Shown: positions 5,537-10,995, counted from the stretch's first letter. The stretch: DNA of 64,000 nucleotides from Verrucomicrobia bacterium LW23 (GCA_003054695.1 QAZA01000056.1:186001-250000); one strand, 5' to 3'. Made by a program: numbers and translations. The notes: generated from the letters alone by a model not told the origin.

Positions 5537-6565
5537 TTACTTCCGGGTCATCACCACGTAGATGATGGCGACGGAGACCAGCAGCAGGACAACGGCGATG
5601 ATGATCGTAATCACCAGGTTGGATTCCTTCTTGGGCTCCACCTTGATATTATTGATGGAAATCGGCTCCGGCCCGCCCTTGCTCTTGTTGGCTTCGGCGA
5701 TTTCCAGCGGATCTTTGTCCTTGTCCTCGATTTTGATGACCGTGCGCTCCATCTCGGTGATCGGCTTGAGCGCGCTGGCCAGCCCGCCCTTGGCGGTGGA
5801 GGTGGCGCCGGTTGCCGCCGTGGTGGCGCCCGTGGTTTTAGGCACAGGGCGTTTGCCGCGCGGGCCGCGGATACCGGCCTCGAAGCGCAGTTGCACGCCG
5901 CCGATCTGGATCACGTCGCCAATTTGCAGCGTATGATCTTCATCCTCAATACGTTGCTCATTAACATACGTACCGTTGGAGGAGTTGAGATCGCGCAGGA
6001 TGATGTCGGTGCCTTTGCGGATTACTGTACAGTGCTTGGACGAAACAGAAGTCTCCGGCAGGACAATATCGTTGCCATCCACCCGGCCGATCTGAACGAA
6101 ATCGGTGCCCAGCTCGTAGGAGACGCGGGGGATATCGTCGGGGCCGTCCATAACGGTAAGGCGCGGTACGGCGCCTTGGATACGGGTCGCCTCCACGGTT
6201 CCGTCATCTTCCATAACCGCTTGCGTCTCAATAATTTCCTCGTCCGAAAGGTGGTCAAACTGACCGGCGGTAAAGAGGAGGGGCCCGAGATCGAGCGTAA
6301 TGGTGCGGCGGTGGGGCAGGATGCCATCGTTAAACGCGAAAGTTCCCGGGGGCCAGCGGAGCATCAAATAAATGGCGGCGGGCCCTTGGATTCCGTTCAC
6401 AATGGCATGGAGAATGTTACCATGTTGGAGAAAGATTTCTCCAGACTGGTCACCCGACTGGAAAACGATCTGCCCGCTGCGCTCTGCCTGGCAGCACATT
6501 TGCAGAATTTCGTCCAGTCGTTGGCCACTTTCTTCTGTATGGGGGATATCGAACGCTGAGTCCAT
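5537..6565 (-). CDS. Tail-anchored DUF4388 (PATAN)-FHA domain protein
   Basis: Predicted phosphothreonine-binding membrane protein of 342 residues from the ATG at 6565. Residues about 10-110 form a DUF4388/PATAN-type domain (GEIFLQHGNILHAIV, then a WPPGTFAF segment). Residues about 150-235 are an FHA domain with IGR, SVSSKH and NSSNGTYVN in the usual order. A Thr/Ala/Lys-rich linker follows, and the protein ends in one hydrophobic helix (LVITIIIAVVLLLVSVAII) with a short basic tail, so the domains should face the cytoplasm. It is transcribed away from the scaffold-GTPase-roadblock genes across a 111-base gap. To my knowledge DUF4388 proteins recur near MglA-type GTPases, so I infer it belongs to the same module. 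Confidence 0.88.
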   Translation of the reverse strand: MDSAFDIPHTEESGQRLDEILQMCCQAERSGQIVFQSGDQSGEIFLQHGNILHAIVNGIQGPAAIYLMLRWPPGTFAFNDGILPHRRTITLDLGPLLFTAGQFDHLSDEEIIETQAVMEDDGTVEATRIQGAVPRLTVMDGPDDIPRVSYELGTDFVQIGRVDGNDIVLPETSVSSKHCTVIRKGTDIILRDLNSSNGTYVNEQRIEDEDHTLQIGDVIQIGGVQLRFEAGIRGPRGKRPVPKTTGATTAATGATSTAKGGLASALKPITEMERTVIKIEDKDKDPLEIAEANKSKGGPEPISINNIKVEPKKESNLVITIIIAVVLLLVSVAIIYVVMTRK

Positions 6566-6676
6566 TTTATGCGAGGGAAAAACCGGGCAAGAATCCGAAA
6601 ATAACGGGTTGCATCTGATGGAGAATAGTGCACCATCAAACCGGAAAGACAAGATCGCAAAACGAGATTTATTCGC

Positions 6677-9600
6677 ATGGCTTTAAACATCTTCAACTTC
6701 GGGAAGAAGGATAAGGAACCGCAGGATCCCAAAGCTCAGGCGCCCGCCTCCGCCCCGAAGACTCCTCCGCTCCCCCCCAAGGCAACAGCGACAGGCGGGG
6801 CCGCCAAGCCCCCCGCGCCTGCGGCATTGTCTCCCATAAGCGCCCGGTCTTCCATCGGAGCTGCCACCACGCAGCCGATGATTTTGCCCAAGGGCGGCGG
6901 TTTAAAGCCGACAAAGCCCTCCCTCATCATGGGCGGCAAGTCGACCCAGCGCATTGTGCTGCCCGAGCGCTCCACAGTGCCCGGCGCCAAGCCCGCCCCC
7001 AGCGCGGCCGCCCCGGTCGCCGGCACGGTCTCCCTGCCGCTCGGCATTATCGTGCGAGTGCTTCCCGCGGAGGTACTTACGATGAGCGTGGCGGAGTTTG
7101 AAGGCTCCCCGATGTCCTCGCAGGAGTGCCCTGTGCCGATGAGCCTGCTGCTGCCCCAGCTGCCCAGCGGCAAGATAGAGCTGACCGTTAACGATCTTGT
7201 CCCGCATCTCCCCCGCAATCTCATCCGCCCTGTGGAGGAGATTGGCAGCTACATGAGCACCGTGGTGCTGCTTCCGCTGATGGATGTCGTCATGCGCATC
7301 CCCCCGGACATGCTCCGCATCCGCGAGGACCAGAAAGACATCGACGCCGCCGTCAAGAACATGGCGGACCCCTTTACCGAGGAGATTTTGCGCGAGCAGG
7401 CCGAAGCGCGCCGCCGCGAAGCCGAAAAGGCCGCCGCTGCCGCCGCCCCCAGCGCGCAGCCGAACATTATTGAGGAAGACCAGGTCAAAAAGACCGAGGA
7501 GTTTGTTCCCACCAATCACGCGCAGCCCCGCAGCACCAAGGCCTCTGAGGATATCGCCTCCGGCCCCACGCGGCCGATTCCGCGTCCGCCCGCTCCCAGC
7601 CTGCCCGGCAGCGGCCAGGCCCCTGCGGCCCGCCAGATCAGCCCCGCACAGCCCCCCCGCTCCACGGGCATGCCCACCATACCGATTGGCGGCGCGCCCA
7701 CCATGCCGATGCCCCGACCGGGTGCCGGCGCCGTCAAGCCCGGCCTTACGTCGTCGCCCCTGGGCGCCAAACCTCCGCTTCCGTCCGCGCCGGCGGGTCG
7801 CGGGCCGGCGGCGTTTCCCCCGCCCGTAAGCCGTGGGCCGCTGACGCCGAAGCCTCCGCTTCCGCCTGGGCCCCGTGTGGGCAGCGCCACTGGCGCGCTC
7901 CCCAAGCCCCCTGTGCCGCCCACGGATCTTCGTGCGTCGCAGGCGCTTCCCAAAATAGACAGACCCGCGCCCGAGCCTGTGGAGCCGGTTGCCGACCTGC
8001 CCACGCCCGTAGCCGACGCTCCCGCCACGCCGGCCGTTCCCAGTGTCGGCCGCCCCGTGCCGCCCGCGTTTGGGAGTCTGCGCCCCGGTCTCTCCGTACA
8101 ACCTCCGTCGCTGCAGTCGCTCAGCAAGGCAGGCGCCAAGCCGTTGCCTCCCGGCATGTCCTCCGTGCGCCCCGCGCCCCCCCTGCTGGCCAAGAGCGCC
8201 CCGGGCGGCATCCCCGCCCTCTTTAAGGCGCCCATAAAGCCCAAGTCCAGTGTGGTTGCCCCCGCGGCCGATGCGACCGCAGTCAGCACGCCCGGCATTG
8301 TACCGGATGTACTGGACCTGCTGAAGCAAGCCGAGGCCGAAGACGTCGCAACCGCCGGCCCCAGCGCCGACGAGATCGCGGCCGAGGCTAAAGCAGCAGC
8401 CGAGGCCAAAGCCGCGGCCGAGAAGGCTGAGCAGGACCGCATAGCGGAACTCGCCCGCCTGGCCGAAGAAGAGGAAACTGCCCGCCTTGCCGCCGAAGCC
8501 GAGGCCGCAACCAAGGCCGAGCAGGAGCGTCTGGCCGCCCTCGCCGCCCAGGCCGAGGAAGAAGAAAAGGCCCGCCTTGCCGCCGAGGAGGAAGAAAAAG
8601 CTCGCCTCGCCGAGGCCGAAGCCGCCCAAAAGGCCGCCGAGCAGGAGCGCCTGGCCGCACTCGCCGCTCAGGCCGAGGAAGAGGAACGGGCCCGCCTTGC
8701 CGCCGAAGCGGAAGCCGAAGCCGCCGCCAAGGCCGAACAAGAGCGCCTCGCCGCCCTTGCCGCCCAGGCCGAAGCTGAAGAGCAGTCCCGCCTTGCCGCC
8801 GAAGCCGAAGCCGCCGCCGCTGAAGCCAAAGCCGAGCAGGAGCGCCTGGCTGAACTCGCCCGCCTTGCCGCCGAGGAGGAAGAGAAAGCCCGCCTCGAAG
8901 CCGAAGCTGCCGAGGCCGCCGCCCGCGCCCAGGCCGAAGCTGAAGCTGCCGAAGCCGCTCGCAAGGCTGAGGAAGAAGCTGTTGCCGCCGCCGCCCGGGC
9001 CGAGGAAGAACGCCTTGCCGCGCTGGCCGCCCAGGCGGAAGCCGAAGCCAAAGCCCAGGCAGATGCCGAGGCTGCTGCAGAGCCGGCTGTGGCCGACGAT
9101 GTGGAACTGGAGCCGGTACCCAACCCGGATCTCAACCTCAACGCCGCCGATGCCGCGGAGATCCGCATCGCCGCCGGCAGCACGCTGGCGCTCGCCCAGG
9201 CCATCGTCAAACTGCGCTCATCCCGCGGCGGTTTCGAGAAGATGGAAGATCTCCTCGAAGTTCCCGGCATGACGCCTAAGGCCTACAATGCCCTCACCGG
9301 CCTGGAGATGCCCGTACCCGCAGCACCTGCCCCGACAGTCCTGCCCGAGGCGGCCCCAATCGTCTACAAATCCCCGGAGGAGAGCATCCTGGAGCTGCTC
9401 AACTTCCCTCCGGACCACGACCTCTCTCTCAAGGACCTCACCGACCGCCTCCAGTCGTGGCCCGACGTCATCGGCTGCGCCCTGGGTCAGGCAAGCGGCC
9501 TGCCGCTGGTCGGTTTCGTCCCGAAGCCGCTGGAACTCAAAGCCATCGTGGCATTCGCGCCCAAGATGTTCAGCGCGGTCAACTCTTCCTTCAAGAACTT

Positions 9601-9784
9601 TGCCGGTGAAGAAACCACGGAAATCATTATACCGACCAAAGGAACCAGCTACCACATGTTCAAGAACAGGGAGCTCTACCTCGTCATCCTCTGCAGAAGG
9701 CGCCAGCTGCCCCGTCGCCAGATGAAGATGATTCGATCGGTACTACGACTGCTGGACACCGCAAATAACAACGAAGAGAGCTAA
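6677..9784 (+). CDS. Large scaffold: proline-rich region, Ala/Glu coiled coil, helix-hairpin-helix and roadblock domain
   Basis: A 1035-residue cytoplasmic protein with no single family name that I know. After a basic start (FNFGKKDK) and a Pro/Ala-rich segment, residues about 117-218 carry three similar short motifs (SLPLGIIVRVLP, VPMSLLLPQLP, LLPLMDVVMRIP). A Pro-rich region follows to about 530, then a highly charged Ala/Glu/Arg coiled coil (about 568-805). Residues about 818-875 resemble a ComEA-type helix-hairpin-helix (LNLNAADAAEIR, GGFEKMEDLLEVPG). The last 120 residues resemble a roadblock/LC7 domain, the fold of MglB. The stop codon is 4 bases before the MglA-like start, so the two are probably translationally linked. 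I infer a scaffold that brings the GTPase to a partner or cell site. Confidence 0.8.
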   Translation: MALNIFNFGKKDKEPQDPKAQAPASAPKTPPLPPKATATGGAAKPPAPAALSPISARSSIGAATTQPMILPKGGGLKPTKPSLIMGGKSTQRIVLPERSTVPGAKPAPSAAAPVAGTVSLPLGIIVRVLPAEVLTMSVAEFEGSPMSSQECPVPMSLLLPQLPSGKIELTVNDLVPHLPRNLIRPVEEIGSYMSTVVLLPLMDVVMRIPPDMLRIREDQKDIDAAVKNMADPFTEEILREQAEARRREAEKAAAAAAPSAQPNIIEEDQVKKTEEFVPTNHAQPRSTKASEDIASGPTRPIPRPPAPSLPGSGQAPAARQISPAQPPRSTGMPTIPIGGAPTMPMPRPGAGAVKPGLTSSPLGAKPPLPSAPAGRGPAAFPPPVSRGPLTPKPPLPPGPRVGSATGALPKPPVPPTDLRASQALPKIDRPAPEPVEPVADLPTPVADAPATPAVPSVGRPVPPAFGSLRPGLSVQPPSLQSLSKAGAKPLPPGMSSVRPAPPLLAKSAPGGIPALFKAPIKPKSSVVAPAADATAVSTPGIVPDVLDLLKQAEAEDVATAGPSADEIAAEAKAAAEAKAAAEKAEQDRIAELARLAEEEETARLAAEAEAATKAEQERLAALAAQAEEEEKARLAAEEEEKARLAEAEAAQKAAEQERLAALAAQAEEEERARLAAEAEAEAAAKAEQERLAALAAQAEAEEQSRLAAEAEAAAAEAKAEQERLAELARLAAEEEEKARLEAEAAEAAARAQAEAEAAEAARKAEEEAVAAAARAEEERLAALAAQAEAEAKAQADAEAAAEPAVADDVELEPVPNPDLNLNAADAAEIRIAAGSTLALAQAIVKLRSSRGGFEKMEDLLEVPGMTPKAYNALTGLEMPVPAAPAPTVLPEAAPIVYKSPEESILELLNFPPDHDLSLKDLTDRLQSWPDVIGCALGQASGLPLVGFVPKPLELKAIVAFAPKMFSAVNSSFKNFAGEETTEIIIPTKGTSYHMFKNRELYLVILCRRRQLPRRQMKMIRSVLRLLDTANNNEES
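8390..9060 (+). repeat. Degenerate coiled-coil coding repeats in the scaffold gene
   Basis: Tandem imperfect repeats coding for units of about 33-41 residues built on EQERLAALAAQAEEEEKARL followed by an Ala/Glu run. Clear copies begin near 8513, 8633, 8729 and 8827, and the DNA copies differ mainly at third codon positions. The protein should form a long alpha-helical coil, as in TolA-like and other rod proteins. Copy number may vary between strains, because the repeats are similar enough for slippage. Confidence 0.8.
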
Positions 9785-9788
9785 TATC

Positions 9789-10418
9789 ATGGCGTTCATT
9801 AACTACTCGAGCAGAGAAATTCAGCTGAAAATCGTGTACTATGGCGCTGCCATGTGCGGGAAGACGACCAACCTTGTGACCCTCCACAAGTTGATCACCA
9901 ACGCGCAAAAGGGCGAGCTCGTCTCCCTGGCAACGGACGCCGACCGAACGCTGTTCTTCGACTTCCTCTCGCTCAATACCAAAACACTCCCGGGCTTCAC
10001 CACCCGCTTCCAGCTATACACGGTTCCCGGTCAGCCCATCTACAACACCACTCGCCAGCTCGTTCTCAAAGGCGTTGACGGCATCGTGTTTGTAGTAGAC
10101 TCTCACTGGGACAAGATGGCCGAAAACGTCGAATCCTTTAACAATCTTCGCGATAACCTGGCCGAGAATCATCTCAGCCTTGCGCAGATCCCCTACGTGT
10201 TGCAGTATAACAAGCGGGACATGCCGAACGCCGCGCCGCTCAATTACCTTGAGTTCACCTTCAATAACCGCGCGACCAAGGTCATGACCTTTGAAGCCGT
10301 AGCCGCCAAAGGCGACGGTGTACTGGAAACTCTCAATGCGGCCGCACGCCTTCTGCTGGCCAAATACTCCAAGACTCCTAACCCCAACGTCGCCGGCGTA
10401 GCCGCCCGTTCCGCCTAA
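9789..10418 (+). CDS. mglA: MglA-like small Ras-family GTPase
   Basis: Cytoplasmic GTPase of the MglA group, the switch for cell polarity and gliding in Myxococcus. The 209 residues match MglA closely: FINYSSRE at the start, P-loop GAAMCGKT (19-26), switch I DRTLFFDF (52-59), TVPGQ (78-82), NKRD (141-144) and the Arg and Gln at positions 53 and 82 that act in MglA hydrolysis. The third P-loop residue is Ala21 where MglA has Gly21 (Ras Gly12), a site where substitutions usually slow hydrolysis. The C-terminal tail after about residue 195 is variable. It sits between two roadblock-domain genes, the expected GTPase partners, with gaps of only 4 and 17 bases. Confidence 0.93.
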   Translation: MAFINYSSREIQLKIVYYGAAMCGKTTNLVTLHKLITNAQKGELVSLATDADRTLFFDFLSLNTKTLPGFTTRFQLYTVPGQPIYNTTRQLVLKGVDGIVFVVDSHWDKMAENVESFNNLRDNLAENHLSLAQIPYVLQYNKRDMPNAAPLNYLEFTFNNRATKVMTFEAVAAKGDGVLETLNAAARLLLAKYSKTPNPNVAGVAARSA

Positions 10419-10435
10419 ACTTATAACGAAAAGCT

Positions 10436-10900
10436 ATGACTGGCATTGGAATGTTGACGGCCGAAGATCAAATGGCCATTGAGCAACTTTTGATCGATTT
10501 CCTCCGAAAGTCGGAAGCGCAATGGTCCGCGCTTGTCGACAAAGGCGGCAATCTGTTCGCTCAATACGGCGACACGGGCTCACTCGACCTGAGCATCCTG
10601 TCCGCCCTCGCGGCCGGCTCCTTCGCAGCCACCCACGAGCTCGCCAAACGCCTTGGCGAGTCTGAATTCAGTGCGCTCTACCACGAAGGCCAGGGGATGC
10701 ACATCCTCATGAGCGCCCTCCATCACGAGTGCCTTCTCGTTACCATCTTTGGCGAGAAAACCAACATCGGCCTCGTCCGCTTCTACGCGCAACAGGTCAC
10801 CACCATGCTCAATGGTATCCTCCAGGCCGTGCGCGACAAGGAAGCCACAATGGACCCGCTCCTGCTCGACGGCGACTTTCTGGACGACGCAATCTCGTAA
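10436..10900 (+). CDS. Roadblock/LC7 protein, MglB-like GTPase regulator
   Basis: A 154-residue soluble protein made of one roadblock/LC7 domain, the fold of MglB, which acts as GTPase-activating protein for MglA. Visible family features are ALVDKGGNLFAQYGD (first strands), LSALAAGSFAATHELAKRLG (central helix, with the usual small residues) and FSALYHEGQG followed by hydrophobic strands ending in IGLVRFYAQ. The ATG at 10436 was taken; another at 10451 would remove five residues. It is the last gene of the scaffold-mglA operon, and a terminator follows 44 bases downstream. I infer that it is the activating partner of the upstream GTPase; this is not shown by sequence alone. Confidence 0.9.
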   Translation: MTGIGMLTAEDQMAIEQLLIDFLRKSEAQWSALVDKGGNLFAQYGDTGSLDLSILSALAAGSFAATHELAKRLGESEFSALYHEGQGMHILMSALHHECLLVTIFGEKTNIGLVRFYAQQVTTMLNGILQAVRDKEATMDPLLLDGDFLDDAIS

Positions 10901-10943: not shown

Positions 10944-10995
10944 AAGGCGATTCGCCCTCCCTCTTCAAAGACGGGTAGGCAAATCGCCTTTTTGT
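10944..10995 (+). terminator. Intrinsic terminator after the scaffold-GTPase-roadblock operon
   Basis: Stem AAGGCGATT (10944-10952) pairs with AATCGCCTT (10982-10990). It is extended inward by GCC/GGC after one C-A mismatch, and followed at once by T residues. The loop is about 21 bases. The T run is on the plus strand only, so it serves the plus-strand operon. Confidence 0.8.

Follow-up and report, generated by a model that had tools for sequence, protein, structure and literature searches.

A Verrucomicrobiota MglA/MglB gene module with a roadblock-bearing scaffold and a candidate link to the type IV pilus extension motor

To our knowledge, it is largely unknown how, outside of Myxococcus, MglA-type polarity switches reach their machines. 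Among the closest described systems is that of M. xanthus, in which a GTPase, MglA, is paired with a roadblock protein that serves as its GTPase-activating protein (GAP), i.e., MglB, along with RomR/RomX, RomY, and MglC. The last of these is a second roadblock protein, which binds MglB to give a 2:4 complex (PMC7949163). M. xanthus MglA also stimulates polar PilB by way of SgmX, FrzS, and SopA (PMC11580455). Considered here is a gene module found at 5537-10900 of a stretch of DNA of 64,000 nucleotides from Verrucomicrobia bacterium LW23 (GCA_003054695.1 QAZA01000056.1:186001-250000), the whole of which is described as the window. The module consists of an operon, scaffold-mglA-mglB, along with a divergent gene encoding a DUF4388-FHA protein, where DUF4388 is what we take to be the PATAN domain. 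With moderate confidence, this module may be viewed as a Verrucomicrobiota form of the MglA/MglB switch, one which would place or activate a type IV pilus extension motor.

Shared with M. xanthus are the MglA and MglB families themselves. By alignment, the window GTPase belongs to the MglA family of Ras-like GTPases, matching M. xanthus MglA from end to end (residues 1-195, E 3e-63), with the active-site motifs GAAMCGKTT, DRT, and TVPGQ lining up as well. The free roadblock protein is MglB-like and putatively the GAP for this MglA. It matches Pfam Robl_LC7 at 2.4e-9 and an MglB of the Protein Data Bank (PDB) at 3.5e-16, clusters with MglB in a tree of roadblock domains, and scores under the cut-off of the NCBIfam model for Thermus MglB. 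The order of the two genes is mglA-mglB, versus mglB-mglA in Myxococcota loci. Elsewhere in the same genome (G000:C3:137260-138191) there is a second, divergent Ras-like GTPase beside a second roadblock protein, which the search for MglA missed.

What differs from M. xanthus is the fusion of the second roadblock with a large scaffold, one that carries a new N-terminal domain (N-domain), and the recurrence of a PATAN protein as partner. An earlier note on this DNA had set the module apart from that of Myxococcus, and the difference in architecture stands, but a second roadblock is not in itself unique given the precedent of MglC (PMC7949163). Actinobacterial conservons (CvnA-D) likewise are conserved operons combining an MglA-like GTPase, a roadblock protein, and partners (PMC4316618), but with a histidine kinase as partner rather than a scaffold and PATAN protein. 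Cyanobacterial PATAN regulators (PixE, LsiR, PixG) share the PATAN domain, theirs often with a receiver (PMC7690835), whereas here that domain is encoded with MglA, MglB, and scaffold, and has FHA as its input in the window's taxonomic order and a membrane segment in this genome. In the passages of their paper drawn on here, Wuichet and Sogaard-Andersen (2014) report MglA in Verrucomicrobia and, for some MglA or MglB genes of Groups 1 and 5, nearby PATAN genes, with no mention there of an N-domain/roadblock scaffold, a second-roadblock fusion, or a pilB operon (PMC4316618). A literature search found neither a fusion of a roadblock with a scaffold bearing a new domain nor a near one-to-one link with MglA across a phylum. 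MglA-PATAN gene neighbourhoods were reportedly noted by Makarova in 2006.

The conserved core of the scaffold is the N-domain (about 115 residues, in one or two copies), followed by a linker that varies and, at the C-terminus, a roadblock. Across the phylum this one uncharacterised domain predicts MglA almost one-to-one. Of 288 Verrucomicrobiota genomes sampled, 27 have a convincing MglA. A narrow profile, i.e., based upon the window and named loci only, detects the N-domain in 22 genomes, 20 with MglA (Fisher p 6e-23), and a broader profile does so in 30, consisting of 26 of the 27 MglA genomes versus 4 of the 261 without MglA (p 1e-31), with these p-values being indicative only, as MglA-linked proteins made up part of the training set for the broader profile and the genomes share ancestry. 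The sole MglA genome without the N-domain, G276, has only a fragment, at the start of a contig, and co-occurrence includes genomes in which the N-domain and MglA lie on different contigs. Beyond the phylum, 63 MglA loci, of Myxococcota and further phyla, all lacked the N-domain, as did 28 MglA-bearing genomes searched whole.

Co-occurrence is seen also as synteny. Within the same family and order, RibF-TruB-DHH-FHA followed by divergent scaffold-mglA-mglB is strongly conserved, with MglA identities of 79-88%. The four-gene set is present in 10 of the 11 same-family genomes examined (all but G006, which is 79% complete), and the FHA/scaffold-mglA-mglB set is found as well in other families of the order. 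In the rest of the phylum, MglA neighbourhoods were taken from 20 genomes, in 16 of which a scaffold relative is near MglA, with the remaining four (G168, G205, G140, G265) having one elsewhere in the genome. For named genomes, a scaffold relative is within reach in 16 of 17 verrucomicrobial MglA loci; the seventeenth, L120, begins at a contig end, and the N-domain is found elsewhere in the L120 genome. Scaffold and MglA thus do stay together in relatives, as the earlier note's proposal of a positioning system supposes.

The N-domain appears to be a new, previously undescribed family, one set apart by its lack of Pfam and PDB matches. That is, searches with 20 members gave no consistent Pfam match, and there was no sequence match in the PDB. 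Its AlphaFold2 model consists of four strand-helix units, with values of the predicted local distance difference test (pLDDT) of 91-96 across model residues 11-90. With that model, Foldseek against the PDB gave nothing at E up to 10, nor did VIA-align give a match, though a missing match is not proof of a new fold. The same genome has a second N-domain copy (L209:7040-9283, G000:C24), apparently inserted between two parts of the PhzC-PhzF domain of a PhzC-PhzF family (phenazine-biosynthesis-like) protein.

The scaffold's C-terminus, which the earlier note had described as a roadblock, is sub-threshold for Pfam Robl_LC7 (0.016). Its AlphaFold2 model (pLDDT about 96) has the alpha-beta-beta-alpha-beta-beta-beta-alpha roadblock fold, with Z of 16.9 to 9jue and of 14.9 to M. 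xanthus MglB, and that description thus is confirmed by model. In a tree built from 88 roadblock domains, none of them MglC, with details that are uncertain owing to a short alignment and long branches, scaffold roadblocks group with free-standing Sumerlaeota roadblocks encoded beside mglA (support 100/99), apart from all MglB. (Row L053_S549 of this tree is a spurious profile match; the L053 scaffold is split in two frames, with L053_S139 being the actual roadblock.) As free Sumerlaeota roadblocks form one group with those of scaffolds, the second roadblock probably predates the scaffold fusion, or else existed independently of it. PDB sequence matches to the scaffold roadblock profile (A2), at E up to 1, include no molecule named MglC, though the roadblock fold is shared. 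That a second roadblock may stand alone or be part of a scaffold echoes eukaryotic multi-roadblock GTPase regulators. As a separate observation, Sumerlaeota loci L129, L147, L173, and L180 have a free second roadblock beside mglB and an unusually long MglA frame of 387-520 codons, and two of the four show a weak DUF4388-like match as well.

A candidate output for the switch comes from outside of the window's order. There, clustering of the neighbours of MglA loci turned up a PilB/GspE-type ATPase along with a TPR-MshEN protein. In six loci TPR-pilB-scaffold-mglA-mglB lie on one strand, and in two more pilB directly follows mglB; no PilB-like ATPase was found near MglA in 63 loci from other phyla. 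In cyanobacteria, PilB is acted upon by PATAN regulators, of which PixE reportedly binds the PilB1 of Synechocystis (PMC7690835). Because of these pilB operons in relatives, together with the links of MglA with PilB in M. xanthus and of PATAN with PilB1 in Synechocystis, a type IV pilus extension motor is, on our analysis, the most likely output. What the earlier note described as ‘positioning’ may in this way be given a concrete candidate output. The scaffold's proposed role would be that of the SgmX/FrzS/SopA adaptors, i.e., joining GTP-bound MglA to the pilus extension motor (PMC11580455), here with a TPR protein and PilB as neighbours in relatives; the scaffold differs in that it bears a roadblock itself, along with an N-domain for which no relatives are known, and a sequence link with those adaptors is not established. 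As several lineages have these same genes and a pilus-type motor together in an operon, there is now a defined, testable set of proteins for what may be front-rear polarity in Verrucomicrobiota.

As to what the switch might respond to, the partner protein has both a DUF4388 domain (49.2 bits versus a cut-off of 25; Pfam, 7e-13) and an FHA domain (72.4 bits versus a cut-off of 20.7; Pfam, 4e-20), the latter with its motif residues GR, SxxH, and NGT present as IGR, SVSSKH, and NSSNGT. Outside of the window's order, a DUF4388 protein without FHA is nearby in 9 of 20 loci, with companions that are instead a receiver (REC), PAS, or a receiver plus a kinase-like region. As DUF4388 elsewhere has these other companions, FHA would be only one input among several. 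Judging from domain content, that is, DUF4388 (PATAN) is the recurrent partner and FHA is one of several swappable, lineage-specific inputs. The divergent FHA partner of the earlier note thus is present, but its FHA is lineage-specific, carried upon a more general DUF4388/PATAN partner, and FHA as a general defining feature of the module was dropped given those partners lacking it. In one neighbouring protein (L121:2636-5008), DUF4388 is joined with a weak match to a receiver, with a kinase-like region, and with a domain of the FGE-sulfatase type.

FHA recognition of phosphothreonine with isoleucine or leucine at +3 would fit a motif, TQR[IL], that is present in the scaffold. All scaffolds with both a detected N-domain and a DUF4388-FHA partner have [KR]x(S/V)TQR[IL] or a near variant of it, whereas scaffolds without that partner lack the TQR[IL] motif, with the exception of L056, in which the motif is kept with no MglA and no adjoining FHA gene. 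The peptide TQRIVLP is encoded one time in the genome, which also has 17 protein-kinase-family matches over threshold, some being parts of one gene. Our hypothesis is that the phosphorylated threonine of TQR[IL] is read by the FHA domain.

The proposed mechanism may be described as follows. MglA would alternate between its GDP- and GTP-bound states, and MglB would be its GAP. With its aromatic/basic N-terminus as a possible peripheral anchor, the scaffold may be held at the membrane. Its second roadblock would dock on the MglA-MglB pair, either directly or through MglB as does MglC in Myxococcus, and its N-domain would reach the effector side, that is, the TPR/MshEN protein and PilB which are encoded next door in relatives. 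The DUF4388 (PATAN) protein would bring the input signal, by way of FHA in the window's order and presumably membrane-tethered in this genome, where FHA may read the phosphorylated threonine upon the scaffold. A stronger version of this scheme, in which Verrucomicrobiota would have a distinct MglA effector system, with the new domain, fused to a second roadblock, being the obligate adaptor through which MglA acts upon the pilus motor and with input swapped via the PATAN partner's domain (here as a phosphothreonine-FHA ‘handshake’), is offered tentatively, as we would sooner doubt than accept it in full.

Several observations weigh against a pilus-directed switch of this sort. PilT is near-universal in the phylum and MglA is rare, so pili do not require the module; for the same reason, the presence of PilT was dropped as a discriminator. 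Four genomes, of one family, have the N-domain without MglA, as short, apparently lone copies, and the scaffold or its C-terminal part is kept without MglA in G013, G021, and G015, of the window's order. Scaffold without MglA, along with a G026 MglA (L055:1700-2293) that has lost its catalytic glutamine, looks like decay of the module, as seen in one genus (L055, L056; G013, G021, G026). For the TQR-FHA link, common descent is a confounder, with every case found in one order and of one evolutionary origin. In the window's order there is no pilB, nor any adjoining motor gene found, beside the module, and the pilus link therefore is transferred from relatives by orthology. Last, the ATPases themselves are near both the PilB and GspE cut-offs (two adjoining ATPases are over the GspE cut-off and one over that of PilB), such that a type II secretion motor is possible.

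These last two points also support the best placed of the alternatives, which is an MglA switch with some other output, whether a type II secretion/GspE-type motor or the placement of an envelope complex, rather than type IV pili. That alternative we consider unlikely, as PilB (TIGR02538) is the top-scoring model for all six of the ATPases tested, albeit near its cut-off and with GspE close behind, as PATAN and MglA are both tied to PilB elsewhere (PMC7690835, PMC11580455), and as this genome has a strong PilT-family match.

Less probable by a good deal is that the scaffold positions DNA or the nucleoid, with its ComEA-like helix-hairpin-helix (HHH) binding DNA and MglA plus the roadblocks placing it. 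The Pfam match and a confident fold in the scaffold model speak for an HHH domain, but that domain is not seen in scaffolds L121, L123, L124, and L125, which keep N-domain and roadblock, and the hairpin glycines of the ComEA type are, by sequence, degraded in the family. That the module is just an ordinary MglA-MglB pair beside an unrelated structural gene, associated through shared neighbourhood ancestry, is hardly credible and strongly disfavoured, since, even though the housekeeping genes RibF, TruB, and DHH are likewise syntenic within the order, outside of it these are gone while scaffold and MglA are still together, co-occurring even on separate contigs.

Returning to the locus itself, features are as listed in Table 1. 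The genes lie where the earlier note had placed them, with its tight spacing, i.e., a gap of 4 bases between scaffold and mglA, and its terminator likewise upheld. The latter, a hairpin plus U-run, was overlooked by a pattern scan but revealed by folding, which is far stronger than in shuffles. Promoters by pattern scan were no better than chance level. For the DUF4388-FHA gene, an ATG start at 6565 is likelier than the mechanical TTG at 6652.

Table 1. Features of the module, with positions counted from the first base of the window
Feature	Position	Strand	Basis or remark
DUF4388 (PATAN)-FHA protein with C-terminal membrane segment, 342 residues	5537..6565	-	divergent from scaffold; synteny kept across order
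Scaffold protein, 1035 residues	6677..9784	+	
N-terminal aromatic stretch, then lysines (MALNIFNFGKKDKE)	6677..6718	+	similar in kind in most relatives
First [ST]TQ motif, TTQPMILP	6866..6889	+	family-level only
KSTQRIVLP motif, candidate phosphothreonine ligand of FHA (T at 0, I/L at +3)	6938..6964	+	
N-domain, about 115 residues, four strand-helix units	7028..7384	+	AlphaFold2 and family profiles
Ala/Glu-rich repeat region, probably helical	8380..9090	+	only in this genome
ComEA-like helix-hairpin-helix domain	9131..9298	+	Pfam HHH_3 2e-12, confident model; not universal in scaffold family
C-terminal roadblock domain, lineage separate from MglB	9419..9778	+	AlphaFold2, structure comparison, tree
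mglA, Ras-like GTPase; P-loop, Arg (DRT), and Gln (TVPGQ) intact	9789..10418	+	
mglB-like free roadblock protein, putative GAP	10436..10900	+	Pfam, PDB sequence match, tree
Intrinsic terminator 3' of mglB	10944..10995	+	folding, z -5.3

Of the scaffold domains that had been listed previously, the roadblock held up, but the HHH is optional across the family and only this genome has the Ala/Glu coil. The Ala/Glu region is genuine, made up of imperfect 96-base tandem repeats, but as relatives have proline-rich linkers at its position it was dropped as a defining trait of the scaffold.

The source genome is 6.6 Mb in size, with ‘Candidatus Methylacidiphilales’ and other verrucomicrobial metagenome assemblies as its nearest named relatives. 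Two records titled Betaproteobacteria and Bacteroidetes (L109 and L116; BOG_genome_mining) bear the verrucomicrobial module and match contigs of the same-family genomes G003 and G005, and probably are mislabelled.

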